From Panopea generosa (taxonomy: Eukaryota > Mollusca > Bivalvia > Adapedonta > Hiatellidae), in assembly GCA_029582155.1 (NCBI GenBank), contig CM055895.1, forward strand, positions 43,894,578-43,958,577: a DNA stretch of 64,000 nucleotides, written 5' to 3'. The notes under the pieces were generated by a model. That model was not told the origin of the DNA and did not search any database. It saw nothing but the letters and a program-made list of their open reading frames with translations. The first letter of the stretch is position 1; each line of letters starts with the position of its first letter. Both the position numbers and the translations under genes were made by a program. Below, piece by piece: positions 14,346 through 49,659 of this stretch.

Positions 14346-14374
14346 AGTAATATGCCTTAGAAGTTTCGCGTTAC

Positions 14375-19950: not shown

Positions 19951-19990
19951 CTGTATTGGACAAAACCGACTATTGCAAATTTCTATCCCA

Positions 19991-20267
19991 GGCCATGCCC
20001 AATAAGCTCAGTCGGTAACGCGTCTGACAATCAATCCAGTGGTCGTGAGTTCGAATCCCCGCCCGGCAGCAGTTTCCGTGATGACTGATATACGACAGTG
20101 TATCTCGTTATCACTCGTCTCTTATCGCTTATTCAAGTGGGATAGTTATCAGTTACTTGGGTGTGCTCGAGTACTGTCTAACTTTTCATGATCTCAGAAA
20201 ACAGTGATTAGGTTAACTGATCGTCTGTTAGCTTTCGATGGCATAAAATGATTCTAAATATTCAATT
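19991..20267 (+). mobile_element. SINE I copy, full length (reference copy)
   Basis: This is the best-preserved member of the family. Its A box lies in 'taagctcagtcggtaacgcg' and its B box is 'gagttcgaatccccgc'. The body has 'gatatacgacagtgtatctc', 'tattcaagtgggatag' and 'gtgtgctcgagtactg', and the 3' end is 'ctaaatattcaa'. It is about 277 bp long. Both internal polymerase III promoter boxes look intact, but no acceptor stem can form, so it is a SINE and not a tRNA gene. Confidence 0.88.
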
Positions 20268-20439
20268 GATCAACAACCATTATCCCAAAATCTGATAGTG
20301 TAATGAAAGGCGTATAATTGGTATATGGCATACATATGTAATATTGAATTTCACTAATGTCGTTAAGAGCTGTTTTTGAACTAAGTGTATTGTTGTAGTT
20401 GCTAATTTAGACATAAGCTACACGTTCTTAACAGTTGGT

Positions 20440-24180: not shown

Positions 24181-24187
24181 CCTATTG

Positions 24188-24466
24188 ACGACCCGCGTCC
24201 AGTTCTCTCAGTAGCGCGTCTGGCTAATATCAATTCAGGTGTTGCGAGTTCGAATCTCCACCCTATCGGTGATGTTTGATTGACGACATTGCGTCGCATT
24301 GTCATTTGCTTCTCATCGTTGGGAGAGTTATAGTTGCTAGATGAGACAGGTATTTTCTAGTATTGGTTAACTTCCAAGGATCAAGGATGGAATGGTAAGT
24401 TTAACTGATCGTCAGTAAGTCCTCGATGACATAAATTACACTAACTATTCAAACAAACAAACAAAA
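24188..24466 (+). mobile_element. SINE I copy between L1 and X1
   Basis: Head 'gtccagttctctcagtagcg', B box 'gcgagttcgaatctcc', body 'gacgacattgcgtcgcattg', 3' end 'ctaactattcaaacaaacaa' with a short CAAA-type tail. The copy at 37,265-37,545 is at the same position in unit 3, so the insertion is older than that duplication. Confidence 0.85.
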
Positions 24467-26455
24467 CCTATTATAGTACATTCAATTTAAAAAAAAACGA
24501 CGATCTATCCGAGTGAAATAAGAACAGATTGCTCCGTACAAAAATATCAATTGTTGTCCCGTGTGTCATATTTCCAACATGTATAATACGGTCATATAAA
24601 TACAAATGTAGCTGATTTCCACATTTCCTGAAGTTAAACATGTGATCTAGGAAACAATACAAATACTATTCAATAAGTATAATAGACAAATGCTTTATAA
24701 TTACCACTGACATTCTATCTGCCCAGTTATTATTGTATTGACCAGTGATACGCTACATGTCTGACAGATCTATTATAACTGAAGATTTGACATGAGTACT
24801 AATCAAAACAATATAGTTCATTTGGTGGTTAACGGTATCTGTCTTATTTAGTCTAAGTAGATTTATTGATGTCTAGATAAATGATATATTTGGAAGGTCG
24901 AATAATTTTATGATCTGAATCATGTTTTACTTCATAGTTCTACCTGCCGCTTCTGTATCGCCTTTCTTCGTTTATTATGTGATTACTATTAATATGCTTA
25001 CACATTTCAAATAAGTTAAATGAGTTATTATGTATATAGTATCATTAAAATTGACAAATTAAAAAGTATTGTATCCACAGATTTACTTAGTCGTTTTCGT
25101 AATTTGAGATTTATAGAGATACTCAAGTCATTTGAATAAAGTTTTATATTTAAATAAACAAATTTTAAAGCATTTATCAATTAGCTCAAAAACATAATTT
25201 TCATTTACTTTCGCGAGCGACATAAGATACTGTTGAAGATGTTTTATTATATACATACATAGATATGGAATATCCCCTAATAAATTAAAAACAATCCGTC
25301 ATAATTGACGCAAATTGGCGATATCATTATAAAGGTAGGGCTTACTAACGCGCACATGAAATCTAACATAATCTTTTAGATATGGTTACATTAAGAAAAT
25401 GGTAATATTAATATCGATGATGAACTGACTAGTTAATTACCCGCTGAGGAGATTCATTATAAATATGGATATACGTTATGTCTAAATATATAAAGATAGG
25501 TAATTTGTTGATCAAAGTACTTTTCAATCTATAACAATATCCATAGTTATAAGGCAATGTTGTTTCACTTTAAAAACAATGTGGCTATTAATCAAGTGTT
25601 ATACATGCCGGATTAGTACATAAAGAGATATATACATATGTCTACCAGGTGGTTTTAGGACTAAAATGAAGATGATTGGTTTAAAGTCTCGTCAATTCCC
25701 AAACCAATATTTTTGTTAAAATGGGATGGAGTAAAATTGAAAAAAATGTCATATATGCAAATGATTATATTCGTCCATTAATCACATACATATCATTAAT
25801 GAATCTTGAAACATGACTCTCAAACTATGTTCTAACGCAATTGAGATGCCATTAAGTGAATATTTTATGATCCATCTAAAACAAACATAACGAACAAGAT
25901 ATAATCAAAATAAGACAAAAGCGCATTGATGCTATGCTGGTTATAAATGTTTTCCTCACATTTGAACTAAACCTTAACGAATACAGATATCAAAACACTA
26001 AATAAATGCGCTCTTGAAATACAGGCGTAATTGTGAGGTTTAAACAAACACAATCACTCTTTTCTCTTTATACATATATTTCTGAAGACAAAATCATGAT
26101 GAAGTGCATACTGTCGCATTTGTAAGAAGAAAGGAAGCTATCTAGAAACCAGGTTTAAGTACAATAGTGAAAGTTCTATTACTGACAGTTCCTCCACTTT
26201 TACCTATTTTATATGTTTGTATTCTTCTTATTACGCTATTGTGTTCGTGGTGCTAAAACGTGTCATTACTAATTCCATACCAATAGTAATTTACCATGCA
26301 TTACCTCCGCAGCAACGTATTTTTGATTAAACAAATCGATGATTTACCTTCAATCTAATGGGTCTATTATGTAATCTTATTGACAACAAGCTGATTGCAT
26401 CTTTGATTCATTCCATGTATTTCACATGTACTCATTAGCTCTCTTTCAACGCTCC
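24467..26455. repeat. Tandem unit 1: X block (X1)
   Basis: No gene seen. It aligns with X3 (37,560-39,450) and X4 (44,500-45,960). Anchors: 'ttattgaccagtgata' or a variant, 'ggcgatatcattataaag', 'tctaacataatc', 'aactgactag', 'taccaggtggt'. At 26,293-26,330 it contains exactly one recognisable monomer ('accatgcattacctccgcag') of the 45-bp repeat that forms a 3.5-kb array at the matching point of unit 3. Confidence 0.8.
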
Positions 26456-26464
26456 TTCTTCACC

Positions 26465-26732
26465 GCAGCGTGGTCTAGTGGCAGAGTGTCCACCTCGCAT
26501 GCGGAAGGTCGTGAGTTCGATCCCGGACCGGGTCATACAAAATACTTCAAAAATGTACTTGAAACTTCCTTACTTGGTTCTCAGTATTTACAAAATAGTT
26601 CTAGATCTGATCGACCCGGTGTCAGTATAATGTGTTTGAGTTGGGTACCATACAAATGTGTCTGCGGCATGATACTCTAGCTGAGGCATGATACTCTAGT
26701 TGCGGCATAATACTCTAGTGCGACACCGTCGC
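26465..26732 (+). mobile_element. SINE II copy, full length, Ala(CGC)-like head
   Basis: The tRNA-like head starts 'gcagcgtggtctagtggcag' (A box) and has B box 'gagttcgatcccgg'. The anticodon arm tccac/ctcgcat/gcgga (one mismatch) places CGC in the anticodon position. The 3' sequence cannot pair with the 5' end as an acceptor stem, so it is not a functional tRNA. The 3' end carries three tandem copies of a 19-bp unit beginning 'ggcatgatactctag' (about 26,666-26,720). The 84-codon frame at 26426-26680 runs through this SINE and is not a gene. Confidence 0.85.
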
Positions 26733-29559
26733 TATATGATAACAAATCAACAAGTCAAAGCTCCTTTAATTTTGAATCATCTAATTGAAAGCATAATGAA
26801 TTGCTTCAACAAACATCATGCCGTGTTTAAAACCTTTCAATATCTCAAAATAATTTACGTGTTGGCATCATCTGTATTTTAAATGTTAATATGCTCATGG
26901 CATTTAAGTATACTTTATGAATGTGACGCATAAGCCAAGCTATGGAAAAGATTTACGAACTTTTTTGGCAATTCATTTCCTCGCACCATTGGTACATAAA
27001 TATGTCATCAAGCATGTGTAGGTTAATAAAAGCAAATAGACGGATACACCTACTGCGGTAACACATTTGTAAACCATAAGTTTATGTAATAATCAGTTCG
27101 TATAATTGATAATGCAATACAATTAGTCAGTTGCATGTTCTAAACTGTTGAACCTCAATTGCCGAATGTAATGGTCATTGACGACATTGACTTACTCATC
27201 CAATACATTAAAATACGTTTTGATGTTACACCACCGTGTGTGTGTTGATAAAGTGAAATAAAACGGAACTGAATCTTGATTATACTATGGAACATGAGAA
27301 ACATCTAGAAATTTAGTACGGACGATAACAATAAAACAATTCCGTTTGTTTTAATTTGTAAATGATAACATAATTATATTCCTAAGGATTTATCGTACAA
27401 CATCGTAAAATGATGACAAAAATATATTCAAATCTAGACATTAGCAACATAAAGAGTATAAATGTCTTAACTTCATGAGAATAAAACGATTAATCATAGC
27501 GTATGTTTTTTCTAACATAAAGCAAAGTGCTGTTATTTTAAACATCTTGTATTTGAACATTTTTGACAACTGTTCCTGGTGAAAAAATAAACAATGAAAC
27601 ATTTAAACATATAAAACTATATACTCGTATGATAATGGTGTAATTTCTATTTTCACTTTACCATGATTTTATCAAATGTTGTTCATGAAGCTCTCGTCTG
27701 TGCGATTTTTCAATCATGAAATACAGAATAAACCGAAGTTAGGCAACACGGAGAGTGTTGCAAATATCAATTGACCAATATTAACGTTTCTTTATCACCA
27801 ACTCAGTCTACAACTTTTATACTGGTGAGTGTGCCTTTCAGTTGCAGAGAGGCGGTAGTTCGGCAGGGGTTCATGACTTTATTCTTTCGCTCCCACCTAC
27901 AAAACTGTTTGCCATATACCGCATAAAATGTATTGAAAAGTCGTTAATTCCTATCCAAGAAGAAAAACACAAAATCATTGATTCCAAGTACACATTACAT
28001 ATAATGATGATGCTGTGGTACTACGATAATCAGATTGCCATACGTGATAAAATCTTAATATTTTAATTGGACAAGATGTTATTAGACGTCTCCCAAAATA
28101 AAATACATTCCTTCATTCAACAATTTACTTTTATTACCTGGAATCTAAAGTTATATGATATCATTATCTTGAACTGGAATTGATTGCTATTTGTATGCAA
28201 TATATGTTGCATGCATCGATCTACTTTCAATGTTCCTTCGTTTTACTCAATTTAATTGCTTAGCCCAAAGGTAATAACGATGAAAGTGTTAACAACATTT
28301 TAAAACATCAAAAATGAGTTTGCATCACTTATTTTATTAACAGATGTTTGTACTGCAGCAATCAATAGCACGAATAACACAACGGCATTAATAAATATCT
28401 ACCGATTACATTATTTACAGATTCTTCAATACAATAATAATTGCAAACAAGCAAATGTTCTAACGATTTTATCTTCACAGTATACAGTTGTGGCTTTTTG
28501 TAAACGCAAAACAACGTTAACAAAAAGACATCCCTCTACTCTGTTTCAGTGTCGTAATAGTCCTTAAGGTTGATGCTTTAACCTGACTTGAAGATCGAAT
28601 GCTGAATAAATCTATGCTTGGAAAAGTACGAAATGTGGCTATTTTATTACCAACTCATCAATTAACTTAACTTCAGCGTGTCGAATCTTTTTCCGTTTCC
28701 TGGTTTCTTCCTCTGCACGATTTTAAATCGCTCTGATGTTAATGAAAAACGTTCATTTATCACTAAAAATCACAATACTTATATCATTTGATTAATACAA
28801 CGCTACTTAACCGTTTGTATCAAAAGTGACAAAATTCACAACGAATATAATCATCATGAAATGCTCTTTACCAGCATATTTGAATGTGTATAAAGAATTG
28901 GAATTAAAGTAACAATACATTTATTATAATGCACTCCAGTCAATACTTTTTCCATAACTTGTTTCCAAAATATGTTTTTGTCAGAAAATAATTGTTTATA
29001 AACAATATAATGTATTGTTCATTCATTCAATAGTTATGATACTCTGGTGTAATTAATGGATTGATTTAATAATTTATATTGCAAATAGACGAATTGCATA
29101 CTATCTTTACGAATATATTATACAAACCATTGCAAATTTCCCTCAACCTAATATCTTACATTTCAATGAAAGACATAACATTCGAATCTGGCATTTACAT
29201 GCAAAATCTGATTTTCATTTAGCAGTCTCAAAGCAGTACCGAGACTATATATGTTTTAACATATATTACATGTGTACTGTACTGATGAAGTTGCGTTCAT
29301 TTTAATGCTACGTTAGATATCAACCACATATTCCTAACAAAGGATTGCGTTAAATGGTACTGTATATCTACACATGCTGAGACGCTTTAGAAACGTTACA
29401 CGTGGACAAACTTAATTTATTAAAAAAACAAATTATTCAATTGAAACAAAACTTTCGGGAAATCAAGAACAATCTTTCCGAATGGCTAGCATTAATTACT
29501 TTTTTGACAGAAGCCAAAATACATATGACATTCCAAGCTACTAACCATATAACGTTTAT
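26733..29559. repeat. Tandem unit 1-2: Y block (Y1)
   Basis: No gene seen. It aligns with Y2 (32,110-34,600), with the left part of Y3 (43,085-44,000) and partly with 19,560-19,950. Anchors: 'tgaaagcataatgaattgc', 'gtaaaatgatgacaaaaat', 'agttgcagagaggcggtag', 'ccaagaagaaaaacac', 'ccattgcaaatttccc'. 27,845-27,960 resembles a SINE III tail. The 90-codon frame at 29402-29674 is interrupted by stops in Y2/L3 (34,450-34,740), so it is not under coding constraint. Confidence 0.78.
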
Positions 29560-31892
29560 ATTATACAATAATATTAGAATTGTGTTCGAAATATATAATT
29601 CATTTTTATGTCCGCATGTTTCTTATATTTCTCGAGTATCTGTATTGTATATTATTATTTCTACATGTGGTTAAGTCAGAATATACTGTCGATATATTTT
29701 CAGCTTGAAAACTGGAAATTACGGGGAACGGGGGTAATGTTTGACAATGTATTTTTGCATGGTTTATTTGCATTTATAAACATGTTTATTTTACCAAGCG
29801 TTGGCGAGTAATTAAAAGCAAACAGAAGTACAGAAGTAATGAGGAAACTAATATTGCAAAATATAAGTTTATATAAATTGTAAACGATAAATTCGTTTTT
29901 TATAGTTTATAATGCAAGAACTCTAGTCTATCAAATGTTCTAAAGCTGAACAAGGTAATGCTAAGTAACAGTGTATGGCGAATATTAATTTACACATCTT
30001 ACACTTGTCAGTATAATTTGATGTCGCATCATCGTGTGTTTTCTTATAAGGTAAAATAAAACGGAAGTAAAACTTGACTTTATTGTAGAACATACGATAT
30101 CCATAAAATGTCAGTCAAGAAATAACTATAATAATTATTTCTTTAGTGACATTTGTGTTAATTCGTGTTATCAGTTGAAAAACAATGATAGCATACAGTC
30201 TTAACAATTATTACTATAAACGACGGTGTTATATTATGATAACAATTTTCACAAAAAAATCTACGAATGCATTAAAAAGTAGCAACGCTCTTCAGGGATA
30301 CCAATATCAATTTTATAGTTCCTTACATCATAATTGCATCGTTATATGACTTTCAGGTATATATCGTGGTAACACCGCCACATATTATTAGGTGATACCT
30401 AACATAATACTGCTATTTTGCAGTTTTATAGAAATCTCACGACCTCTCTGGCTCAAGTATCTGAATTATACGATTTAAAATGAATACTGAACGTAAACAA
30501 TAGTTTCAAAATCCGATTTGCTTTTACTTAGCAATTTTCCTTGGGCAAGTGTAGGAAGAATGCATAGTGTATATCATAAAACAATTATTTTGTTTGAAAT
30601 ATTTTCTCCGTCAACACAGTTTTAAATGCAAAGACAGATAAATTCAGAGGGAACTTTACCAAAGTGTATAATGTTACTTAACAAAGACATGCAAGCCAAC
30701 ATATATTGCCATCGAAACACACTTTGATACATATGTATTATCAAACTGATTTGAACAACGTTCGAACATAGACTAAATAGAGATTTCTGGTATATTTAAC
30801 ACATGTTTTCACATTAAGGTATAACAATATTTAAATGAAATTAAAAATCATATCTTGAGGAAGTTCTGGTACTAAAGTATATAGATTATATGTAACATTT
30901 AAAAACTGATCACAGTATATATCTTAATTTATATAAGAGACAAAAAATTAAAACGTCAAGATAAATCTGTAGTGTAAAACATTTCAAGATAATCAAATAA
31001 TGTAAAGTAAATTAACAATCGATCATACAGTAGTATACTATTTCAACATACAACATGTTGTTGTGACACATTAAATGTTTATTGTATGTATATAAACGTT
31101 AATTACACATTGTGTCTATCCAAGTTTGATAATATATATTCAAAATGGAAATTATAAAAAATACATTGTTTAACATTTCCTTTACAAAACAAAGCTGTTT
31201 TCAATAGCTCAATCTTTATTCTTTGAACATGCCAGTGTTATGGATGATCTGTCTTTTCCACGGAATCTATTTCTATGATATTTTCGAATATTTCTTTATA
31301 TTTGTTATTGGATTAGTGTTGTTTGTTTTAAAACTATTAATGCATATCAGTTGATTGTCTATGGTTTAAGGTAGACTTAAGGTCCCATTATATTTGCAAA
31401 TGCAACTTCTGAAAGGCATTAAAATGGATTGAAATATATCTAAATCGTTGAAAAGGTTTCGTGCAGTCATTAAAGATGGTAATGTTTCGTGTGGTATTGC
31501 AGTTTGAGGCATAGGTATTAAAACTCAAAGAATGAAAATGAGTTAAGATATTTAGTAATCGATTTAAATTAATATCTAAAATGCATATCGGACTTGCAAT
31601 TTGACGCTTTATAAGGATTTGGTTGTCTGGCTTTCATTTATTAATGTATTTAAAAGACATAATGTAACAATGAAAATGAAAACGGGATTCCTAATCATAC
31701 AATAAATAAAATGGAAGTAGGTATTTAATGAAACAGAAGTTTCTGTCAAAAACAACGCCATCTTATAATTCTATGATATGTTTTTATAAACGACACAATA
31801 ACACACCGTGTGTTGCATAACCAATTTAAGGTGTAACCTCTTTTGTATGCTTGATAATAAAATCATTCTATATATTGATTGTTTTAATGTTG
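29560..31892. repeat. Tandem unit 2: L block (L2)
   Basis: No gene seen. It is colinear with L1 without the LINE, and with L3. It ends abruptly after 'attgattgttttaatgttgc' (31,874-31,893), where L1 and L3 continue into SINE I. Here the sequence jumps into the middle of a SINE II. Confidence 0.8.
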
Positions 31893-32102
31893 CTTCGCTT
31901 GCGGAAGATCGTGGGTTCGATCCCCGGCTGGGTCATACCAAAGACTTCAAAAAAGGTACGAGAAGCTTCGTCATCTGGCGCTTAGATTTGAAAGGATAGT
32001 TCTAGGTCTGATAGGCCCAATGTCAGTTTAATATGACTTGGTGGGGTTTCATACATTGGGTCTGCGGTTTGATACTCTAGTGCGGCAGCGCTCGAATTAC
32101 AG
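31893..32102 (+). mobile_element. SINE II copy, 5'-truncated at a deletion junction
   Basis: It starts inside the tRNA-like head ('cttgcggaagatcgtgggtt'), keeps the B box 'gggttcgatccccgg', and shares the body with the copy at 26,465 ('gtcatac', 'actagttctag'-like pieces 'atagttctaggtctgat', 'gatactctagtgcgg'). It has a single 19-bp tail unit instead of three. The missing 5' end coincides with loss of SINE I and the whole X block. Confidence 0.8.
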
Positions 32103-34599
32103 TCTGAAGTAGAAACTGTTGCGATATGACTGAAAAATTGTTGAAAGCGACGCTAAACACGACATAATTCACCTTCAGCTATGAATCAGCTAATGGAAAG
32201 CAGAATGATTGCGTCAACTAACACAAAGCATAATGAAAGTGTTTAAAACCTTTCGATATCTCAAAAATGTTGACGTGTTAGCATCGTTTGTTTTAGTTAT
32301 AAATGCATATATTAGAACAATCAATAATTAACATGCATCATTAGTATAGCATAATTATGTAACTTCGTCAGTCTTTGCGATAAAACAAATTGATAAATTA
32401 TTATGTTATTAGTATCTGCATCTTGGATACACACGTTTCAGAAAAAATAGATTTATTTTCTCTATTTTTTATTTTCCAATATTCTGTTTTTACATATAGA
32501 TCATATGCCCATGTCATTTAACATTACTTATGAACGCAACGCATAAGTCAAGCTATGGAAAAAGTTTACGATTTTATCTGGCAATTCCTTTCATTGAATT
32601 GATATGCATAACTATTTCATCCAACATGTGTAGGTAAATAAAAACAAATAAACAAATAAAACTACTGCGGTAAAACGTTTGTAAACCATAAGATTATGTA
32701 CGGTATTAATCATATAATCACTTTGAACCACACTGACAATTGCACAACGTTATGATCAGAAAAAGAGTAATGCATATATTGACTTACTCATCCAATATTT
32801 TAAAGCCCGTTTGAATGTTGCACCACCATGTGTGTTTCGATAAGGTGCAATAAAACGTGAAAGAAATGAAAACAAAAGTGAATCTTGATTATACTCTGGC
32901 GCATAAGATATATCTAGAGTTTTAGTACTGTCAATATATATAAAACAATTTATCCAGTGATGTTTGTTTTAATAAGTGAAATGATAACATATATTCCTTA
33001 GAAAATATCATGCAACGTCGTAAAATGATGACAAAAATATATTCAGATCTATGAATACACAACATAAAAGAGTAAAAATGTCTTCAATTCATTTTTAGAA
33101 AAATCAATAAGGGTAAAGAAATGATAAATCATAACGTATCCTTTTTCTAACATAACATAAAGTGTTGTAATATTTGATAGTTTGTGTTTGAACATTTTTT
33201 GACGACTGTGCATGGCGAAAAATTAAACAACGAACAGTTAGTTAATATAAAACTATATATTCGTAGTGCAATTTCTATTTTCACTACCATAATTTTATCA
33301 AATTCCATTCAAGGAGCTCATCTCTATGTGTCCTTTCAATTATAAAATACAGCATAAACCGATGTTGGCTGCGCGAAATATTTTTCAAATATTAATTAAC
33401 AATATGAACGTTTCTTTGTCACCAGTTCGGTCTGCAACTTATATACTGGTAAATGTGTCCTTAAGTTGCAGAGAGGCTGTAGTTCGGCTCAGATTCATGA
33501 CTTTATTCTTCCGTCCCCCACTAATGAAACTGTTTGCAATACATAACATAAAATGTATTGAAAAGCCAATGAACCCTATCCAAGAAGAAAAACACAAACA
33601 CATTGATTCCAAGTACACATTACATGTAATGATTATGCAAAAACATTGATTCCAAGTACACATTACATTAAATGATTTACAAAAACTATTTATTTATTAA
33701 CTCATCAATAGAATCTGTTAAACTGTTTCGATTTCCTTTTTGTTTCTTGATTGCTTTCTCTGTCTCACTGCACACTTTTGAATCGAAATGATGTTAATAT
33801 AAAACATTCATGTATCATTTAAAAATTCACCATACAAATATCAAATGATTAATACAACACTACTCAACCGTTTGTATCAGACACGTAATGGTTATCGGAA
33901 GTTACTAAATTCACACCAATTATAATTGTAATGACATTCTCTGTACAAGCATATCTGAATGTGTATAAGCAATTGGAAAGAAAGTAACAAAACATTGATT
34001 ATAATGCACTACTATCCGTAAATGTTTCCAAAATATGGTTTTGTCAGAAAATATGTATTATTCATTCATTCATTCATTAAATAGTTATGACACTCTGGTG
34101 TAATTAATGAATTGATTTAAAAAATTATAATACAGATAGACGAGTTGCATACAAACTTTACGACTATATTGTACGCAATCGACCATTGCAATTTCCCCGC
34201 ACCCTAAAATCATACAGTTCAATGAAAGACATAACGTTGGAATATGGCATCTACATGCACAATCTGATTTTCACTTAGCTGTCTCAAAGCAGTATCGAGA
34301 CAATATATGTTTTAACGTATATTACATGTGTACTGTACTATTTTATTTGCATTTTTCAATGCTACGTTAGACATCAACCATTATTCCTAACAATGGATTG
34401 TGTTGAATGGTACTGTATATCTACACATACTGAGACTCTAAAGAAATGTTACACATAGGAAAATTAAATGTATTCTATAAATAGTTATTTAATTGAAACA
34501 AAAGTTTCGGACAGTCGAGAATAATCCTTCCGAAAGACTTGCATTTATAACTTTCCTTAAACTTGCCAAAAAAACATCTAAAATTCCAAGCTTCTAGCC
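32103..34599. repeat. Tandem unit 2-3: Y block (Y2)
   Basis: No gene seen. It is colinear with Y1 across its length. The frames at 33326-33649 and the opposite-strand frame at 33439-33663 cover the 'cagagaggctgtagttcgg' repeat segment and are not preserved in Y1. A short direct repeat ('cattgattccaagtacacat') is present twice, at about 33,600 and 33,645. Confidence 0.78.
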
Positions 34600-37255
34600 A
34601 TGTATCTCTTATATACATTAGAATAGTGTTCAAAAATATAAAGCAGTTTCACGTCCGCATTTTTTTCGATTATTTTTATGATGACTGTTATTCCAGTTTC
34701 TAAATATATTACTCGAGTATCTGTATTGTATACTATCATTTTTACTTTTGCTTATGTTGGTATATTCTGTAGATCTATTTTCGGCTTTTAAACTTGTTTT
34801 ATTAATGTAACATATACTGCAAATAACGGTGGAATGGTTCACAATGTGTTTATTTGCATTTATAAACATATTTATTGTACCAAGCATTGGCGAGTAATTA
34901 AAAGCAAACAGAAGTATAAAAGTACTGAGGAATCTAATTGGTAAAACGTAGGTTTATGTTAATTGTTAATGATATTATCGTTTTTTATATTTTATAATGC
35001 AATAAATCTAGCCTATCACATGTTATAAAGCTGTACAAGATATTGGTAAATAACAATGCATGGCCAATATTTTAATTATTAAAACATCAAACACTTGTTA
35101 GTATGTTTTGATTTCGCATCATCGTGTGTTTTCTGATAAGGTAAAATAAAACGAAAGTAAAACTTGATTTTATTGTTGCACATAAGATATCCATAAAATG
35201 TTTGTACAAAAAATTACTAAAAAATATAATTTCAATGACGTTTGTGTTAATTCGTGAAGTCAGCTTAAAAACTAGCATACAGTCTTTAGGATTAATAATA
35301 TAAATGACGATGTGAAATGGCAAACACAACTTTCACAAAATCTACGAATACATAAAAAGGTACATTGCTCTATACTTATATCAGATAAACTGTGTATGAA
35401 GACAAAGACTCACTTCTGGAAAAAATAATCTTGCCGTATACGAGTACCTTTAATTACATGGATATATGATTCCTAAGCTCATATTTAAACTCATTTATTG
35501 AACTTTATTTCTAAACAACCTTATTAATTTCAAGACAAAATTAGCAACATCGACAAACATTACTAAGGAATATCTACAAAGATACTACTATTTTTCAGTT
35601 TCATACAATCTAGATACAATCCAGACCTCTCTGGCTCAATTATCAGAATTATGTGATTTTAAATTGCATAGAGAATATAAATATTAGATTATGAATCCGA
35701 TTCGATTTTACTTAGAAATTTCCTTTGGGCAGCTATAGAAAAAGTGCATATTGTGTATCAAACAACAACTAATTTGTTTGAATATTTTCAGTTTTATATG
35801 AAATAACAGTTTATTTCGAAGGAAATGTCTCCAAATAGTACTTTGTTACTTAATGCACACATGCAAGCAAATATATATTACCGTCGAGAAACACTTTGAT
35901 ACATATGTAATGTCTAATTGATTGGAACAATGTTTAAACATACGAGTCATGGAGTTTTCTGATATGTTTAACACATGTTATCACATTAAGTTATAACAAT
36001 ATTTATATGTAATTAAATAGCATATCTCGAGTAGGCGTTTGTACTAGAGTTTATAGATTATATGTAACATTTAATGACTTATTAAACTTATACCGTAGTT
36101 TATATCGGAGACAAAATCATGAAATATAAAACGCCAAATTACATCTATAGGGTTAAACATTTTAAGATTATCAAATACTGTAAACTGATAATCAACCATA
36201 TAATAGTACACTTTTCCAGTCTATAACAATCACATTGTTGCGACACATTTTATATTTTATATTATGTATACGGAAATATTAATAGCTCATTGTATCTATC
36301 AAGGAAAATGCAAACTATAGAAAATACATTGTTTTGCATTTCCATTACAGAATCAAGTTTTTTTTCAAGCCGATACACTGTTTTTATAAAATGCCTGTGA
36401 CATGTATTTGGGCGTTCTGTTTTTCCAAGGAATATTTCCCATTAGATAATCAAGTGTTTTTCTCAATAAGCTCAAACATTATTTTTAGTAAATACCTTTG
36501 TTATGGTATTGCGGCTTTATACTTTGGTGTTCTGCGTTTCCAAAGAACAAATTTCTCTGATGTTTATGAATATTTCTTTATATATGATATTTGATTATTC
36601 TTGCTTGTTTGAAAAATTGATTTGTGCATATCGGTTTATTGTCTATAGTTAAGGGTAGGCTTTAGGTCCCATTATATTTGCAGATGCAACTTCGGAAAGG
36701 CATTTAAATGGATTGAAATATATCTCAATCGTTGAAAAGGTTTCGTTCAGTCATTTAATGATGGTTAGGTTTCGTGTGGTATTCGGTTTTAAGCATATGG
36801 ATTAAAACATAATGTATCAAAATGTGCTAATATATTTTTGTAATCGATTTTAGTTAATATTTCAAACGTACATAGGACTTGCAATTTGACGGTTTATAGG
36901 GATTTGACTGGCTTATTAATGCAGTAACAAGGCATAGTGTAACAATAAAAATTAAAACGGAATTTCTAAATTGGTACAATAAATAAAACTGAAGCAGGTA
37001 TTTTATGAAACAGATGTGAAGTTTCTCTCATTAAACATTACAATCTTATAATTCTGGGATATCTTTTAAAAAATGAAACAATAAAACACAGTGTATTGTG
37101 TAACCGTTCAAAAATGTAACCTCTTATACTTGTGTATGTTTGATAATAATATATTATATATATATATATATATATAAATATATATATTGATTGTTTTATG
37201 TTGCCTTTGAACTCTACGTTTTCTAGTAGGCATGCATTGTCTTATAAAATGTGTA
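34600..37255. repeat. Tandem unit 3: L block (L3)
   Basis: No gene seen. It is colinear with L1 and L2 and lacks the LINE. A (TA)n run at about 37,148-37,192 is longer than in the other copies. Frames at 34630-34887, 35087-35329 and 36334-36594 have no counterpart in L1/L2. Confidence 0.8.
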
Positions 37256-37264
37256 TCTTTTTGA

Positions 37265-37545
37265 GAGCCGGGTCCAGTTAACTTAGTAGCGCGACAGAAT
37301 AATATCAGTTCAGGAGCAATGCGCTCAAATCCACGTCTGTTGACAGTCTCCTTAATGATTTCGTCTCATTGTCGTTTGTCTCCCACCGTCGATTCAAGTG
37401 GGAATGTAATCAGTTACTTAAAGAATTCGGTGTGCTCGAGTACTGGTTCACATTCCAGGATCCTAGGAAAGAGTGGTTAGTTTAGCTGGTCGTCTGTTAG
37501 TCCTCGATGTCATAAGAATAGGCGTAATATTCAAACAAACAATCA
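37265..37545 (+). mobile_element. SINE I copy between L3 and X3
   Basis: Head 'gccgggtccagttaacttag', degraded B box, body 'tgtctcccaccgtcgattca', 'gtgctcgagtactggttcac', and 3' end 'cgtaatattcaaacaaac'. It is at the same place as 24,188-24,466. Confidence 0.85.
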
Positions 37546-39452
37546 AAACCTATTGGGAAACATGCTATTTAAAAACGATTTTCTATCTCAGTGAAATCAG
37601 AACAAAATGGTGAATGCAAAAATAAATCGGTGTCACATTTATCATTGATGATACGATCGTATAATTTTTTTTAAAACATTTGATGCAGATTAAAATACAA
37701 ATCCTATTCAGCGGTTATAATTGTCAAATGCATTATAGGTATCCGTGTATACTCTCTGGTCAGTAACAGATCAATAACACAAGATGCTCTAATGGACATG
37801 TTTGCTAATCTAAACGAAAAGTCTATCTTGTCGTGTCGGCCTTATTGTGTAATAATGTTGATATTTAGTTAGTGAATAGCTTTAGAAGCTCGAATTATGA
37901 TCCGATTCATTTTTACTTCTTATCTATTTGCATTTTCATTTGTATCCATTTCTTCATTTGTTATTTATTCGTAAAGAAATAACATGGCTATTGCGTTATA
38001 AAGTACATGGAATCATGTTGGTAAATTGAAAAGTACTGTATCCATAGATTCACTTAGTCTTTAGCGTAATTGCATTATGTACAGCTATTACATGCGTTTA
38101 TGATACTTAAGTCATATGAATAAAGTTGTATATTTTAATACATTTAAAAGCATTTATTAATTAAACCAAAATCATTATATACATTTACTTTCGCAAACGA
38201 CATAATATACGGTCGAAGATTTTTTATTATAGCATACATTGAATGCCCTCTAATGAATCCAAAAAATCCGTCATGATACATGCACGTTTTCGGCGACATT
38301 GTTATAAAGAGAGGGCTTACTTACAATCTGATCACCTCGGCCTTTATGCTACGCAATAGACCTCTGACATAATAAGGCGCCATTTTGGAACAACTTTCAG
38401 TCACATGATAAAATAAAATGGCGGACACCTTATGCCACCTTATATGCATGTTCGTTGAAAATATAAAAGTTGGTTAATCAAGACTGATATTTTAAATTTA
38501 CCTATAAACATGACCCATGTCGAGTGTTTTATTAAATAATCGGTATAATAACGCCATATATTCAACTTAATGACGGATACATAATGTGTTACTTTCACGC
38601 GACTGAACTCAGACTTGTAACACAGGCGAATAGCGTTGGTGTATTCTAGAGCTATACACGAGGTGTATTATACGGAGGATACGGAAATACCCGATGTTTC
38701 ACGATTGGGCTTACTTAATCACTCTAAAATTCTAACATAATCATGAAGATGTAATTATATAAATAAAAGCGTTTTATTAATATCAATGAAGAACTGACTA
38801 GTAAATTAGCCGCTGATGAGATTAATTACAAACATAAAACATGGTTTTACAATATATTTAATGTATAAAAAGAAGTAAATTGTTCATCAAAGTGCCTTAA
38901 TTTTTAAGATATATTTAGTTATTGGGCAATATTTTTACACTTGAAAGACAATGCAGCTAATAATCAAGCGTAATAAATGCCAAATTAGTACATGACATGA
39001 AGAGATATATAATTAGTTTTACCAGGTGGTCTTAATGACTTAAGTAAATATATTTTCTTTTGAAGTCTCCTGAATTCCAAAACCAATGTTCCTGCTTACA
39101 TTAAAAAGGGAAGGAATGGAATTAAAATGATTATATTCGGCTGTTTATCACATACGTGTTGTAAATGAAAATATATTGCTTGTATTTGTAGAAGTATATT
39201 AGTGTTTAAAAGCATATTAATGTGCATGCTGTCGCGTTTGAAAAACACTGAGAGTTATCTAAAATGATGGATGCACGCACGTGTAAAACTAGGTTTAAGA
39301 CACTAGTTCCGTATTGCTACCGTTCCAAGGCGATGCCCTCTGTTGGCACTTATTCTTCATTTTTGTAATGTACTTATTATTATAAGTATATTTACTGATT
39401 ACACCTGTAGTTCAAAACTTGTAATTTCCAACTTGGTGTTAATAGTTAACTA
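37546..39452. repeat. Tandem unit 3: X block (X3)
   Basis: No gene seen. It is colinear with X1 and X4 except for a 383-bp insertion (38,324-38,706). Its right end leads straight into the 45-bp array. Confidence 0.78.
38313..38717. mobile_element. 383-bp insertion with 11-bp target-site duplication
   Basis: The 11-mer GGGCTTACTTA occurs at 38,313-38,323 and again at 38,707-38,717. X1 (25,345) and X4 (45,335) have a single related 'gggcttact' or 'ggtcttactta' and no intervening DNA, so they serve as empty sites. The insert encodes nothing. Internally it has an imperfect inverted pair, TAAGGCGCCATTTT (38,373-38,386) against AAAATGGCGGACACCTTA (38,415-38,432). Ends are only weakly inverted ('caatctgatcacctcgg' against the complement of 'cccgatgtttcacgatt'). 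An 11-bp duplication without a poly(A) tail would fit a Mutator-like non-autonomous element; this is a suggestion only. Confidence 0.75.
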
Positions 39453-42400
39453 CCACGCACAAGCTCCGCAGCAACTGTTCTGTCAACCATACATCATATC
39501 CGTTACCACATATTTTCAATTGTTCTGTTAACGATGCATTTCCTCCGCAGTCATCAGTTTTCAATTGTCCTGCATTACCCCCGCAGTCATATATGCTCCA
39601 TTGTTCTGTCAACAATGCATTACCTCCGCAGTCACATATTTTCATCGTTTTGCCAATCAAACATCAAATCCAAAGCCACAAGGTTACAATTGTTCTGTTA
39701 ACAAAGAATTACCTACGCAGGTACATATTTTCAACTGTTCTGTAAACCATGTATTGCCTCCGCATTCACATATTTTCAATTATTCAGCCAACCATGCATT
39801 ACCTCCGAAGCCATTTATTTTCAAATGTTCTGTCATCCATGCATTACCTCCGCAGTCAAATATTTTCAATTGTTCTGTCAACCATGCATTACCTCCGCAG
39901 CCATATGTTTTGAATTGTTCTGTCATCCATGCATTACCTCCGCAGCCATATATTTTCAATTGTTCTCTAGTCCACGCATTACCTCCGCAGCCATATATTT
40001 TCAATTGTTCTCTAATCTATGCATTACCTCCGCAGCCAAATATTTTCAATTGTTCTCTAATCTATGCATTACATCCGCAGCCATATATTTTCAATTGTTC
40101 TCTAGTCCACGCATTACCTCCGCAGCCAAATATTTTCTATTGTTCTCTAGTCTATGCATTACCTCCGCAGCCAAATATTTTCAATTGTTCTCTAATCCAT
40201 GTATTATCTCCGCAGCCAAATATTTTCAATTGTTCTCTAATCCATGCATTACCTCCGCAGCCAAATATTTTCAATTGTTCTCTAGTCCACGCATTACCTC
40301 CGCAGTCATATATTTTCAACTGTTCTCTAGTCCATGCATTACCTCCGCAGCCATATATTTTTAATTGTTCTCTAGTCCACGCATTACCTCCGCAGCCAAA
40401 TATTTTCTATTGTTCTCTAGTCTATGCATTACCTCCGCAGCCAAATATTTTCAATTGTTCTCTAATCCATGCATTACCTCCGCAGCCATATATTTTTTAT
40501 TGTTCTATAATCCATGCATTACCTCCGCAGCCAAATATTTTCAATTGTTCTCTAGTCTATGCATTACCGCCGCAGCCAAATATTTTCAATTGTTCTATAA
40601 TCCATGCATTACCTCCTCAGCTTTATATTTTCAATTGTTCTCTAGTCTATGCATTACCTCCGCAGCCAAATATTTTCAATTGTTCTATAATCCATGTATT
40701 AGCTCCGCAGCCATATATTTTCAATTGTTCTGTCATCCATGCATTACCTCCTCAGCTATATATTTTCAATTATTCTCTAACCCAAGCATTACCTCATCAG
40801 CATATATTTTCAAATGTTCGTCATCCATGCATTACCTCTGCAACCAAAAATGTTCAATTGTTGAGTCATTCATGCACTTCCTCCGCAGCCAAATATGTTC
40901 AACTGTTCTGCCATCCATGCATTATCTCTGAAGCCATATATTTTCAATTGTTTCGTAAACCAAGCATTATCTCCGCAGCCATATATTTTTAATTGTTCTG
41001 TAAACTATGCATTACCTCCACAGCAAATATGTTCAATTGGTTTCTAATCCATGCGTTACTTCCGCAGCCAAATGTTTTCAATTGTTCTGAAATCAATGCA
41101 CTACCTCTGCAGCCAAATATTTCAATTGTTCTGTCATCCATGCACTACCTTCGTAGCTAAATATGTTCAATTGTTCTGTCAACCATGCATTACCTTCGCA
41201 ACCATAAATTTAAATTGCTCTGTTATCCATGCATTACCTCTGCTGACAAATATTTACAATTGTTCTGTCATCCATGCACTACCTCCGCAGCCAACTGTTT
41301 TCGATTGCTCTGTCGTCCATGCATTACCTCCGCAGCTATATATTTTCAATTGATCAGTCATTCATGCACTTCCTCCGCAATCAGATATTTTCAATTGTTC
41401 TGTCATCCATGCATTACCTCCGCAGCCAAATATTTTCAATTGTTCTGTTATCCATGATTTACCTCCGCAGCCATATATTTTCAATTGTTCTGTCAACCAT
41501 GCATTACCTCCGCAGCTATTTGTTTTCAATTGCTCTGTCAACCATGCATTACCTCTGCAGCCAAATATTTTCAATTGTTCTGTCATCCATGCACTACCTC
41601 CGCAGCCAAATATTTTCAATTGTTCTGTCATCCATGCACTACCTCATCAGCCATATATTTTCAATTGTTCTGTCATCCATGTATTACTTCCGTAACCATA
41701 TATTTTCAATTGTTCTGTCATCCATGCACTTCATCCGCAGCTAAATACGTTCAATTGTTCTGTCATCTATGCAATACCTCCGCAGCCATATATTTTCAAT
41801 TGTTCTGTCAACCGAGCTTTACCTCTGCAGTCATATATTTTGCATTACCTCCGCAGCCAAATATTTTCAATTGTTCTGTCAACAATGCATTACCTCAGCA
41901 GCCAATATTTTCAATTGTTCTCTAATCCATGCATTACTTACGCAGCCATCAATTTTCAATTGTTATCGTATACATGCATTATCTCTGCAGCCATATATTT
42001 TCAATTGTTTTGTCATCCATGCATTACCTCCGCAGTTATAAATGTTCAATTGTTCTGTCATCCATGCAATACCTCCGCAGTAAAATATTTTCAATTGATC
42101 TCTTATCCATGCATTACCTTCACAGCCATATATTTTCAATTGTTCTATCAACCATGCATTATCTCCGAAGCCAAATATTTCAATTGTACTGTCAACCATG
42201 CAATACCTCCGAAGCCATATATTTTCAATTGTTCTGTCAATCATGCATTTCCTTTGTAGCCAAATATACTCAATTGTTCTGTCACCCATGCATTACCTCC
42301 GCAATCACATATTTTAAGTTATCCAGCCAAATATGCATTACCTCTGCAGCTATATATTTTCAATTGTTCTGTCATTCATGCATAACATCTGAAGCCATAT

Positions 42401-42995
42401 ATTTTCAATTTTTCTGTTAACACTGCATAACCTCTGCAGCCATATATTTTCAATTGTTCTGTCATCCATGCATTACCTCCGGAGCTAAATATTCTAAATT
42501 GTTCTGTCATCAATGCACTACCTCCGAAGCCATATATTTTCAATTGTTCTGTCACCCATGCATTTACTCCGCATCCAAATATTTTCAATTGTTCTGTCAA
42601 CCATGCACTACCTCCGCAGTCAAATATTTTCAATTGTTCTGTCATCAATGCACTACCTCCGCAGTCAAATATTTTCAATTGTTCTGTCATCAATGCAATA
42701 CCTCCGCAGTCAAATATTTTCAATTGTTCTGTCATCAATGCAATACCTCTGCAGCCAAATATTTTCAATTGTTCTGCCATCCATGCATGACCTCCGAAGC
42801 CATATATTTTCATTTGTTCTGTCAACCATGCATTACCTACGAAGCCAAATATTTTCAAATGTTCTGTCAACTATACATTTCCTCTGCAATCATATATTTT
42901 CAATTGTTCTGTCAACCATGCATTGTCTCTGAAACGAATTGTTTCAATTGTAATGCCAACCATGCATTACCTACGCAGCTATATTTTTTAAATTA
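39453..42995. repeat. 45-bp minisatellite array, about 79 copies
   Basis: The consensus unit reads 'gcattacctccgcagccata' followed by 'tattttcaattgttctgtca' and 'tccat'; the period is 45 bp. Subfamilies are visible: a 'ctctagtc/ctctaatc' type dominates 39,960-40,700 and a 'ctgtcatc/ctgtcaac' type dominates elsewhere. Since 45 is divisible by 3, several frames on both strands stay open. Examples are a 475-codon plus frame (39565-40992) with 15-residue repeats 'HALPPQPYIFNCSLV', and minus-strand repeats 'MTEQLKIFGCGGNAW'. Single-base indels move the plus frame from one open frame to another. Substitutions fall at all codon positions, and no upstream exon or conserved start is visible. I treat it as non-coding. 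Confidence 0.95.
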
Positions 42996-44089
42996 AAGAT
43001 CACGATTTTTTCCAGGGATCTGATAGTCTATGGTGTCATCATATTGATGACAAACTGTTGCACTTTATATACATGTCATGTATTTCACATGTACCGGATA
43101 GCTCTCTTTCAACGAACCTTTGGCTTTGAATAAGCTGATTTAAAGCATAATTAATTGCTTTACCTAACATCATGCCATCTTAAAATTGTGTTGGCATCAT
43201 TTGCTTTAGTTGATAGATGCATACATTAAAACAATCAATAACCAACATCGTTACTTAGTATGACGTCATTTAGAAACTTGGTTCGTCAGTCTTTACAATA
43301 AATATAAATGAATGTTAGTGTATCTTTCTTACAGATGCACAGGTTTCAGTTAAAATACTCAAGTGTGATAGTTTTATACTCAATATTTCTTTTATTTTTC
43401 AATGTTCTGTTTTTAGATATATTTATAGAATTTAAGTGCATTTTTCAACGTATCGCATAAGTGTAAAAATAAAAAAAAGTTGTGTTTCATTTTCATTTAC
43501 AATACAAAGTACATCATCACGCATGCGTAGTTACAGAAATAGATGCATAGATCTACTCTGGTAAAACTTTTGTAAAACGTTATTTTATGCAAAGTTTTAC
43601 CTTTATAATCTGTTGTATAGTTTATACCTAAATAAAATTAGTCTGTAACATGTTCTAAACGTTTAAACCTGTATAGCAATTGCACATTTAATGTTATGAT
43701 TAGAAAAGAGTAATGCCGATATTAACTTACTCATCCAGCACTTGTAAGCACGGTTTGATGTTGCACAATAGTGTTGAAATAAAACGGAAGTGAATCTTGA
43801 TTTTATTCTAGTACATAAGATAGATCTAGAATTTTAACACAGGCAATGTCTATAAACAATTTTCTTTAGTATGGTTTATTTTAATTCGTTAAACCAGCTT
43901 TCAAATAACAACTTAAAACATATATTCATTTTGATTAAGCATGAAAAGTCGTGAAATGATGATAATAATTTACTATTTTTTTCATCGTGTACAATATACT
44001 TTTTATATAAACCAATATAAACATTATAATGTTATTCTGTAATATGGTAATTTTGAAAAAAAAAAAATAAAAACTGTTTTATTGTTTAT
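42996..44089. repeat. Tandem unit 3-4: Y block (Y3), truncated
   Basis: No gene seen. The stretch just after the array ('catgtatttcacatgtac', 'agctctctttcaacg') matches the sequence left of SINE II at 26,415-26,455. 43,140-44,000 then matches the left part of Y1, including 'aaagcataattaattgc' and 'aacatcatgcc'. The site where units 1 and 2 carry SINE II is empty here. The right half of Y is missing, and the sequence passes near 44,090 into the end of an L block. Confidence 0.7.
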
Positions 44090-45960
44090 AGTTGTTTGTT
44101 AGTCCTATTATATTTATAGATGGAATATTAATTTGGGTTGAACCATCTTCAATAGCTGGTATAATTATTTCGTGCAATCGCTCAACGATGGCACAGGTTT
44201 TGGTGGTGATGCTCTCATAGGCATGAGCGTTAAAACTAAAATCATCAAAATGTGCAAAGACACTCGGTTTTTAATTTTGGATAATATTAAGAATTGACAT
44301 TTCTCGTTAATTTCAAAGTTTACAATGTTTCGACTGACTGGTTTGCATTTAGTGATTTATTTAGAATACAATGTCTACCAATTAAATGGAGAATATGTTC
44401 ATAATATGATACGATACACTAAATAAAAAGCATTGATCCTCTGGTCAACACGGACAATACTTCTATGTTATAAACAACTGTTTCTTCATATCTCATAAAC
44501 ATTTGCTGCGAGAAACAAAACGAGCTGCGTTCTTTACATATCTGTTAAAAATTCTCCTTGGCAGACAACTTATAGAACATAGTAATTAATGTATTGACCA
44601 GTGATATCTGAGAGATAAACCAGTATAATTAACTATATTCTTATCGCAAACCTATCAGAATAGTTCTAGTTATCACATGCCTATAAAGAAATCGATCAAT
44701 CGACCGTATTCCTCATCAACTGCGAACACTTACAAGATAAAGTTTCTGCAATTCAGTAATAAAGTAGTTGCATATATAGATATGATTTGGAAATGGAATA
44801 AAGACAATTCAGATTTGATGTCATTAAAAAGTTATGTATGCTTACTCTACAGAAACATATTGGTCGCATTTAGCCAATTAAAATAAATAGGTATACTATA
44901 AAATAATTAATTCAAACTATATATACTAAATCAAATTGTATCCATATTTTGTGTGAGGTATAAATTATGTTAAACTAAAATGATACAGCAGTAAACTTAA
45001 TCTGCATTTGCATGCATAGTTACTGTATTTCATTCCGCTAATCTGTAACAGTGGTTTATGACTAATCTATTCATACCATGCATAGAAACTGAGTCACCGA
45101 TATCTCGGTCCTATAATCAAACCAACGGAATAAATTGATTTGCCTAAATACACACATTGACATGTTGTATGTCTATTAACAATTATTTTTGATTAGAATA
45201 ATGTTAACAGACGAATTCACCTTCGCATGCGAGGATTTTCATTATGTTTGTGTATTAAACATATACGATTAAATGCCTTGTCACGAATTCCAAAGATAAC
45301 GTGCATCTTCGGCGACATTGCTATAAAGGTAGGTCTTACTTATTCACACTTGAAATCTAACATAATCATAAGGATGTGGTTATATAAATACAAGTGTTAT
45401 ACAAATATCAATGATTAACTAACTGCTTAATAACCCGCTGATGATATTCATTATAAACTCAAGAAATGGTTTTAGTTTATACTGATTTATTTTAGCTCGA
45501 TTGCGATGAAAGCTCAGAGCTTATATGAACCGTTCTCGAGTCTGTTTCCTGGGTAGAACCAGTACTGAGTGTTGTTTTATGAGAGGCATCGGGTCGAGCT
45601 GGGGATCGAACCCGCAACCTCTGGCGTGAGCGGCCAACACTCTACCCATTAGACTACCGCTCCGCTTAAGAAATGGTTTTACAATACATACTATGTTCAA
45701 ATATATGAGGAGAGGTAATTGGCTGCGCAAAATGCTTTAATCAATAACGGTATCCTTATTTACGGTGCAATGTTATTACATTTTAAACGCTATGTATCCA
45801 TTAACCCATGGTTATCTTTTCCGGATTAACACATGAAGAGATATTTAAATGTGTTTGCCAGGTGGTGTTAAGGGATTAATGTGGGATAATTTGTTTGGAG
45901 TCTCGCGAATTCCTCAAGTTATTTTCTATATGCATTAGAACAGGATGGAATAGAATAAGT
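44090..45960. repeat. Tandem unit 4: L end plus X block (L4/X4)
   Basis: No gene seen. 44,090-44,500 matches the last part of L ('tcctattatatttatagatg', 'tttcgtgcaatcg', 'atcaaaatgtgc'). 44,500-45,960 matches X1 and X3 ('tattgaccagtgatat', 'cttcggcgacattgctataa', 'gccaggtggt'). There is no SINE I between L and X here, unlike units 1 and 3. Homology to the tandem unit fades after about 45,960. Confidence 0.7.
45461..45681 (-). mobile_element. SINE IV copy with perfect 14-bp target duplication
   Basis: The element occupies 45,475-45,667 and is flanked by AAGAAATGGTTTTA at 45,461-45,474 and 45,668-45,681. On the minus strand it starts 'agcggagcggtagtctaatg' (A box), with B box 'gcgggttcgatccccag', then a body containing 'cagtactggttctacccagg' and the 3' end 'aataaatcagtataaa'. 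Length is about 193 bp. X3 has the unfilled site ('aaacatggttttacaat'). The intact target duplication suggests a young insertion. The frame at 45521-45730 is the SINE read through. Confidence 0.9.
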
Positions 45961-46305
45961 TAAAAATTAAGACATGTATTTGATTATATTCGACCGTTTA
46001 TTAAAAATATATGATGTATTGAAAATTAAGTAATTTAAGTAATCCAATTTAACGGAATTGAGAAACGATTTAGTGAATAGTTTTTAATCCATATTTTAAT
46101 ATATTTTGTTCATATCTTTTTTATTTCTTCAAATAAGCGCTGTTTAACAAAATATGTCTTATGGACCATAGGTCTCCTGTTTAACATATACACAAATGTC
46201 ATTATAAAGTCTTTGGTGTTCTTTGTAAATGATAAATTATTAGTTCAGTGTGATACTTGCTATCTGAGTTTGTTCAATAATCAGTGACTATCCTGTGCTG
46301 TTAGA

Positions 46306-46583
46306 CGGGCCCGGTAAGCTCAGTCGATAGCGAGTCTCAATCAACCAACCCATTGGTCACCAGTTTAAATCCCCGCATGGCCATGGTATCCGTGATGATT
46401 AATATACGACATTGCGTCCCATTGTCACTCGTCTCTCACCGTTGAGCGGGAAAATTGTAAAATACTTCTCGAGATAAGTATGCTCGAGTACAGGTAACCA
46501 TACAAGATCATATAAAAGAGTGGATAAGTTAACTGATCGTGTGTTAGCACTCGATGACATCAAAAGATGATAACTATTCACAA
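46306..46583 (+). mobile_element. SINE I copy
   Basis: Head 'gggcccggtaagctcagtcg' (A box), degraded B box 'ccagtttaaatcccc', body 'tatacgacattgcgtcccat', 'gtatgctcgagtacagg', and 3' end 'gataactattcac'. It lies outside the tandem duplication, showing that the family is genome-dispersed. Confidence 0.85.
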
Positions 46584-46913
46584 AAAAACTATTCTGATCT
46601 TAACAATATTACATTGCATGACTTAAACTATTTATTTACGCACACATACTCAAATAAAACGTTCCCTGTAACCACTTTACATCTGTCACCGAATACCGTA
46701 AATGATTAGTTGCAAGTGTTGACATGTTATGATTTAGTTATATCGTGCACCACGTTAAGCGTTTATATTTAAGTACCATCGCACTTGAGATTATCCGCCT
46801 GGTGCATGCGTTTGGAAAACAATAAACTTGCACGCGCCTAACTTTGTTAGCAATTTTATGTAAATGAACGCATGGTCATCAAGATTAAAAAAACAAACTA
46901 ATTAGTGATTGAC

Positions 46914-48059: not shown

Positions 48060-48616
48060 TATAGCATTTCAAATCAATATTCTAAATTCAACAAAATACG
48101 AACTTATCGTGCCTATTCATTCAAATACGCATTTATCTACCAATTCAATCAAGTACGCATTAATCCTATCCATTTAATCACATATGCATTAATATTTCCG
48201 TTTCAATCAAATAGGCAATAATCAAACCAATTTAATCAAATACGCTTTAATTCTACCAATTCAATCAAATAAGCTTTAATCATACGAATTCAATTAAATA
48301 CGCATTTATCATACTTATTCGAATAAATATGCATTAATCCTACAAATGCATACAACATACGCATACTCCTACCGATTCAATGAAACACGCATAGTCCTAC
48401 CAATTTAATCGAATACGAATTAATCCTACCTATCCAATTAAATACGCATTTATCCTACTTATTCAATAAAATACGCATTAATCCTACAAATGCATACAAC
48501 ATACGCATAATCCTACACATTTAATCAAATACGAATTAATCCTACCTATCCAATTGAATACGCATTAATCGTATTCATTCAATAAAATACGCATTATTCC
48601 TAGCAAGTACGCATTC
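48060..48616. repeat. 29-bp degenerate tandem array
   Basis: Units resemble 'ccaattcaatcaaatacgca' plus 'ttaatccta', about 29 bp, roughly 19 copies, with variants such as 'aaatgcatacaacatacgca' that occur twice at about 130-bp spacing (near 48,340 and 48,485). Further units appear at 49,105-49,200 after an interruption. The 84-codon frame at 47967-48221 overlaps the array and is not a gene. Confidence 0.85.
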
Positions 48617-49108
48617 TTTTTTTACAAATCGCTGTTCATATTGTACAAGTAAAATCAAACAGACAAATCCTATTCGGTTACCCGGGGCACTCTGGACACT
48701 CATGCATAACCACTTTCCTCTCATCTTTACTTCTCTATCTCTTTAACCTTCTCGTTCAATCATTTTCAACTGTCAATTTTTTTCTTATTTTTTTCCCCCT
48801 CCTCTTTTCACAGTTCTTACGAGACTTGTGCAAAACAACCACGGCGTATTTGTTCAAATGGAATAACTACGCCGTGAATAAACTCTTAAGTTATAACAAT
48901 AAATATTTCAAATAACATACTAGTACATGCTTTATATACCGCCACTTGTAAATTCACCTGTATATCACCAGTAATTTCTGGGAGCTAGATTCATACAAGC
49001 TAATTAGCTTTTTTCTTAATCCCAATTCTTAGAATTGTTTGTCATTTATGAATGGCAAATGTTATGTAATATACTATGTACAGTTCTTGAATAAAATATT
49101 GTTTAAAC
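48617..49108 (+). mobile_element. Insertion splitting the 29-bp array; LINE-like 3' end
   Basis: About 490 bp of unrelated DNA separates 'aagtacgcatt' (48,606-48,616) from 'aagtacgcatt' (49,109-49,119). The repeat could be a target duplication, or simply two array units. The insert has a pyrimidine-rich stretch (48,710-48,815), a perfect 9-bp hairpin CACGGCGTA/TACGCCGTG (48,840-48,848 and 48,868-48,876), and an end 'ttgaataaaatattgttt'. This resembles the 3' UTR of a retroelement, but no coding remnant is clear. Confidence 0.5.
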
Positions 49109-49659
49109 CAAGTACGCATTAATCCTACAAATTCATTTGAATATGCGCATTTTACCTCGCAATTCACTTAAATACACAATAATCATTCAAATACGTACGC
49201 AGGTGGAGTGTGTATTTTACTTTATTGCTAGATCACTAGGTCCAAGATCTCACACAAAGATGATCCGATAGTATGTGCTGAGCTTAATTTTCATTATGTT
49301 TCGTGTTGATTATATCTTAGAATACATCGATGGTGGTTTGTGGAGGTTTCTGAATCTTATTTCACAATCGATGTAAAAATCAGATTTCCTGTTTTATTGC
49401 GATATTGAATATGCAAATATATATATCTTTTTAAGCCAATTTCTTAATTCTATTTATCTTCACGAAATATATACTTACACCTGCTAATGCTGTTTTATTA
49501 TCCTATCTAAACACCACCGCCTTAAAACAAGCATTAAAAATGAAACGAAATAACTCATATTACAAGCATAAAGTATTTAATTACAAACGGGTTGAATTGC
49601 ATTGTTGGCAGACATTTAACTGCGTAATTGTGATAATATTATATATTAAGTTTAAGCAG
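49109..49659. other. Array remnant and non-coding DNA
   Basis: 49,105-49,200 contains about three more 29-bp units. 49,340-49,380 has a string ('tcttatttcacaatcgatgt') also seen at about 11,200 and inverted at about 885. No gene. Confidence 0.5.

Follow-up and report, generated by a model that had tools for sequence, protein, structure and literature searches.

The 64-kb stretch of DNA analysed here (the window) contains a tandem array of 45-bp units at 39.4-43.0 kb and, at 26.3 kb, a site with a single copy of the unit, called X1 below. Both sit within six tandem blocks, A to F, which self-comparison and trees assign to two alternating types (A, C and E to type 1; B, D and F to type 2), and self-comparison places the block copies as a local cluster within the 64-kb window. 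The features of the cluster and of the two sites are as follows, with the basis of each in brackets.

19577-26281, + strand: block A, type 1 (self-comparison, tree)
26059-26281, + strand: left flank of X1, end of block A (alignment)
26282-26324, + strand: X1, single-copy counterpart of the array unit, core at 26294-26313 (profile searches, alignments)
26325-28013, + strand: block B, type 2 (self-comparison, tree)
26325-26457, + strand: right flank of X1, start of block B, resuming beyond an insertion (alignment)
26458-26766, + strand: putative tRNA-like SINE insertion and second copy of its target duplication (sequence; paralogous copy at 31895-32294)
28095-31859, + strand: block C, type 1 (self-comparison, tree)
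31895-33638, + strand: block D, type 2, starting within a copy of the tRNA-like element (self-comparison, tree)
33686-39440, + strand: block E, type 1 (self-comparison, tree)
39179-39440, + strand: left flank of the array, end of block E, paralogous to 26059-26281 (alignment)
39441-39472, + strand: incomplete left terminal unit of the array, 32 bp against 45, with a degenerate 20-bp core at 39453-39472 (sequence; alignment to X1)
39473-42990, + strand: tandem array of 79 head-to-tail units of 45 bp, consensus starting AATTGTTCTGTCATCCATGCATTACCTCCGCAGC (wrap-around alignment; Tandem Repeats Finder)
39913-40767, + strand: inner block of similar units, numbers 12-30, mean p 0.096 (unit comparison)
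42946-42990, + strand: last unit of the array (numbered 80), grading into the right flank and sharing GTAAT with X1 (alignment, sequence)
42995-43185, + strand: right flank of the array, start of block F (alignment)
42995-46092, + strand: block F, type 2, followed by a left-flank-like stretch at 45311-46092 (self-comparison, tree)

The original prediction of an array of about 79 copies was borne out by wrap-around alignment, which counts 79 units at 39,473-42,990; Tandem Repeats Finder reports a 45-bp array at 39,472-42,994, in overlapping rows. With 79 units of 45 bp across 3.5 kb the array is a minisatellite, a class whose arrays, according to the excerpted text of PMC3356730, span 0.5-30 kb and are built of tandem units 6-100 bp long. 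In the wrap-around alignment the units are 45 bp long in 67 of 79 cases and 44 bp in nine, with 36, 39 and 32 bp occurring once each, and position 39,453, given as the array start in the original prediction, is where the core of the incomplete left terminal unit begins. Over all units the mean pairwise identity is 0.805 and the mean divergence from the consensus 0.117, the first eight units being the most degenerate (0.199 from the consensus, against 0.081-0.134 in the other bins). Adjacent units are more alike (identity 0.826) than in any shuffled order (maximum 0.814 in 100 shuffles and 0.817 in 300). Mean identity is almost flat at lags 1-8 (0.821-0.827) and falls slowly beyond; among lags 1-15, it lies above all 300 shuffles at lags 1-7 and 10. 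Within the inner block, stretches of three units repeat at lag 6 with up to 97% identity, and units 12-30 are far more alike than the other units, so part of the array expanded after the remainder.

A higher-order repeat of 135 bp, suggested by a Tandem Repeats Finder period, was rejected, as there is no fixed trimer and local similarity is seen instead. A coding protein repeat was likewise rejected: 45 is a multiple of three and the longest open frame in the array is at least 191 aa, but 10 of the 79 units (44 or 32 bp long) shift the frame and break any reading frame. No function is indicated for the array. The strand asymmetry of the array is strong, with a GC skew of -0.42 at 40001-42000.

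At X1, alignments show the order left flank, one word, right flank. The core of the word, CCATGCATTACCTCCGCAGC, equals the array consensus at 20/20 bases, and X1 matches the consensus at 27 of 32 columns (5 mismatches, 0.156), the difference being 0.233 over a gapped 43-mer. Profiles of the unit match X1 at 22.3, 22.9 and 23.5 bits in three of four builds (E 2.9e-6 to 6.6e-6), against a best score of 12.6 among 50 Markov-simulated windows, and the fourth build, whose register splits the word, scores X1 at 7.9 bits (E 0.2). Searched with these profiles, the masked 64-kb window holds no place besides X1 (26,293-26,323) with E below 0.5, which upholds the earlier claim of a single monomer at this site. 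Exact-pattern scans for the word in viral and prokaryote collections gave 0 matches, a result of little weight if the window is eukaryotic, as we take it to be by inference.

A closer look at the word at X1 shows that it has GCAGCAAC in common with the left terminal unit and GTAAT in common with the last unit, and lacks the GTTCTGTC part typical of inner array units. Over the same 32 columns, 18 of the 79 array units have a poorer fit to the consensus than X1. Direct repeats at lags 41-49 around X1 (26261-26345) reach a best score of 3, against a shuffled mean of 5.3, and 499 of 500 shuffles reach this score; the test takes X1 to be ancestral and any old repeats to be still visible. A tree of single units that includes X1 has 79% of its length in terminal branches, with an X1 branch of 0.20 against a median of 0.05, and is therefore too short to root.

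The flanks of the two sites were compared by local alignment, each comparison against 300 Markov-shuffled sequences. The right flanks (42,995-43,120 and 26,325-26,457) align at z=20, and the whole left flanks (39,179-39,451 and 26,059-26,292) at z=8.6, with 0/300 shuffles reaching the score in either case. The best local left-flank alignment ends at 39,379, and the nearest 120 bp of left flank alone are weak (z=2.0, with 9/300 shuffles reaching the score). The expectation that the flanks align outside the monomer thus holds on the right and on the distal left, but is weak on the proximal left. The "agctctctttcaacg" segment, which the same prediction had placed at both sites, does occur beside both X1 and the array. 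At X1 this segment is followed by a tRNA-like insertion (~26,458-26,755), which the original prediction does not mention, which is missing from the right flank of the array and which is bounded by an 11-bp target duplication (26447-26457 and 26756-26766, 10/11 identical). We read the insertion as a probable SINE from its sequence, without a database match, and the tRNA and Rfam search of the window gave no match at gathering scores.

In a tree of one block-internal stretch, blocks A, C and E are split from B, D and F at 100% bootstrap, with C and E joined at 100% and B and D at 99% (200 replicates). In a second tree, built from the right-flank stretch in blocks A, B, C and F, the pair F and B separates from A and C at 100%. 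X1 lies at the A|B junction and the array at the E|F junction, so that the two represent the same site in two paralogous copies, 13 kb apart. The third junction of this kind, C|D, appears to mark the breakpoint at which ~26,495-31,859 was later copied in tandem to 31,895-37,148 (the two halves of this duplication diverge similarly, at p 0.192 and 0.189, but at 0.235 and 0.166 over the tree stretch); if so, self-comparison would imply that the C|D junction never carried the word. The starts of blocks A and C are likewise similar to the B and F right flanks (z 3.8-6.3, with 0/300 shuffles in all four comparisons), and contain neither the array nor the word by profile search and alignment. Upstream of these starts, no similarity to either left flank was detected (z -0.6 to 1.6, the score being equalled in 23, 46, 226 and 80 of 300 shuffles), and because they lack the left flank they cannot polarise the ancestral state.

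The wider window is AT-rich, with a GC content of 28-39% in 2-kb steps. A Pfam scan, covering 83 of the 111 stop-free frames of at least 62 aa outside the four arrays, exceeded the cut-off in one frame only, a Tc1-like transposase at 63,236-63,793 (HTH_Tnp_Tc3_2); the single other match among the 83 was a weak one to Chromosome_seg (E 0.008). An 82-bp array of 16.7 copies lies at 2847-4227, inside the segment at 1-6.1 kb, and the paralogue of this segment at 10.5-14.1 kb aligns on both sides of it with no array or unit at ~12340-12403, making a second present/absent pair. Further minisatellites of 31 bp and 29 bp lie at 14372-15189 and 48085-48606, respectively. For neither the 82-bp nor the 31-bp array does the window contain a single-copy counterpart, save an edge remnant of the former; one stray unit of the 29-bp array lies 0.5 kb from it (49107-49128). 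Between the two paralogues, ~82% identical otherwise, an island at 5767-5908 and ~13750-13882 reaches up to 100% identity over 60 aligned columns; it is spanned by a minus-strand frame at 5724-5942 and could be an exon or a conserved element. Self-comparison also shows a family of dispersed repeats, ~200-250 bp long and with copies in either orientation, at 9258-9804, 13069-13258, 20005-20265, 24201-24462, 37358-37539 and 46309-46589.

The age of the array can be set against that of the duplication. The surroundings of the two sites differ by p 0.21-0.26 (JC 0.25-0.32) when substitutions are counted in local alignments, which favour similar stretches; end-to-end alignments give p 0.307 for the right flanks, 0.302 for F against B, and 0.258 for A against E farther in. 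Within the array the mean unit-unit divergence is JC 0.225, slightly under that of the flanks, and the eight left-most units stand at p of about 0.255 from the rest and 0.293 among themselves. Since unit divergence is close to flank divergence, array and duplication are of about the same age. This similarity in age fits an origin of the array near the duplication, and also allows an older array.

That the word was amplified in place, or an array collapsed, at the shared junction is well supported by these comparisons, and in-place amplification is the best explanation, to which we give somewhat better than an even chance. A two-part segment of types 1 and 2, with a single word of 43-45 bp at the 1|2 junction, would have been duplicated in tandem to give two copies of that junction. 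In the copy at 39.4-43.0 kb, slippage or unequal exchange would then have multiplied the word in place to 79 units, close in time to the duplication and with local expansion within the array afterwards, and the word in the 26.3-kb copy would have remained single. The common site and its flanks, the copy numbers of 1 and 79 and the block of similar inner units are observed; we infer the ancestral single copy, the relative timing of duplication and amplification, and the step to the first doublet. The chances seem evenly balanced that both states have been kept in one tandem cluster in this way, a single junction word having been duplicated, one copy amplified ~79-fold near the duplication and the other single ever since. 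Several observations argue for amplification: the flanks and the word align across the two sites and X1 is the sole other significant copy in the 64 kb, the alternating block types set X1 and the array at homologous junctions, and no array is present at the starts of A and C, with which the right flanks were also compared. The mean unit divergence slightly under that of the flanks points the same way, as do the incomplete left terminal unit and the degeneracy of the first eight. The difference between X1 and the consensus over 32 columns is smaller than the flank differences, which would follow from a consensus close to the ancestral word and drift of X1 along one branch. The similar inner units and the decayed left edge are consistent with amplification followed by growth.

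Contraction is a possibility to be taken seriously, though on balance the less likely one. In this reading an array would already have stood at the junction when the segment was duplicated, and recombination or slippage between its incomplete first unit and a late one would have reduced the X1 copy to a single unit, with almost the same expected sequence as amplification. The left-edge units have diverged roughly as far as the flanks, so that part of the array could predate the duplication; the 0.233 between X1 and the consensus exceeds one branch of flank divergence; and X1, with a core identical to the consensus and a better fit to it than 18 units, could be a surviving array unit. The weakness of the proximal left-flank similarity and the direct-repeat result, which leaves no trace of a slippage substrate, also weigh against amplification. 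With its GCAGCAAC and GTAAT, X1 resembles a hybrid of the first and last units, but this sharing is equally expected if the terminal units retain ancestral sequence, and X1 lacks the GTTCTGTC of inner units. Contraction would also require the loss of every unit except one, and the mean unit divergence is not above that of the flanks; amplification is the more likely of the two. It is quite unlikely that gene conversion or a small insertion instead carried the word from the array to X1: an identical core between flanks that differ by ~21-26% would suit such a transfer, but the word occupies the homologous position, similarity continues through it into the right flank, and mismatches at five of 32 columns mark no especially young copy. 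An accidental match between unrelated flanks, which the proximal left flank alone might suggest, is highly improbable given the alignment of the right and whole left flanks (no shuffle in 300 reaching either score) and a word score of 22-23 bits, beyond any simulated window. Of the original prediction, birth in place after a segmental duplication, the paralogous sites with 1 and 79 copies stand. Its reading of X1 as the "before" state is not shown; the left-edge units are as diverged as the flanks, so the array may match the duplication in age.

Minisatellite initiation is described as hard to study (excerpt of PMC3389668). In one model, minisatellites are born by slipped-strand mispairing at non-contiguous repeats, of which an incomplete terminal unit is the mark (Taylor and Breden, 2000, as described in an excerpt of PMC3389668). 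The incomplete left terminal unit of the array (32 of 45 bp) shows this mark, which is not exclusive to the model, but falls short by more than the 10% that the excerpted text allows. A second model derives the array from a word between direct repeats of 5-10 bp (Haber and Louis, 1998, as described in excerpts of PMC3389668 and PMC2820488). Like the origin described there, amplification here would have acted on a single-copy word between still recognisable flanks; unlike it, X1 has no flanking direct repeats at lags 41-49. Two paralogous sites that share their flanks, one with a single word and the other amplified, offer a candidate pre-array sequence for models of the first step, and if X1 is ancestral it counts against the flanking-direct-repeat model for this word. 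A literature search named no locus resembling the pair of a single word and 79 units, to which we attach little weight; we read the process as already known and the locus as a new instance and a good small example of it. Gray and Jeffreys reportedly described minisatellite transience in primates in 1991, with a long array at one locus and a short or single-copy state at the matching locus. Those loci are orthologous between species, whereas the two sites compared here are paralogous within one cluster, where polarity must be read without a species tree.
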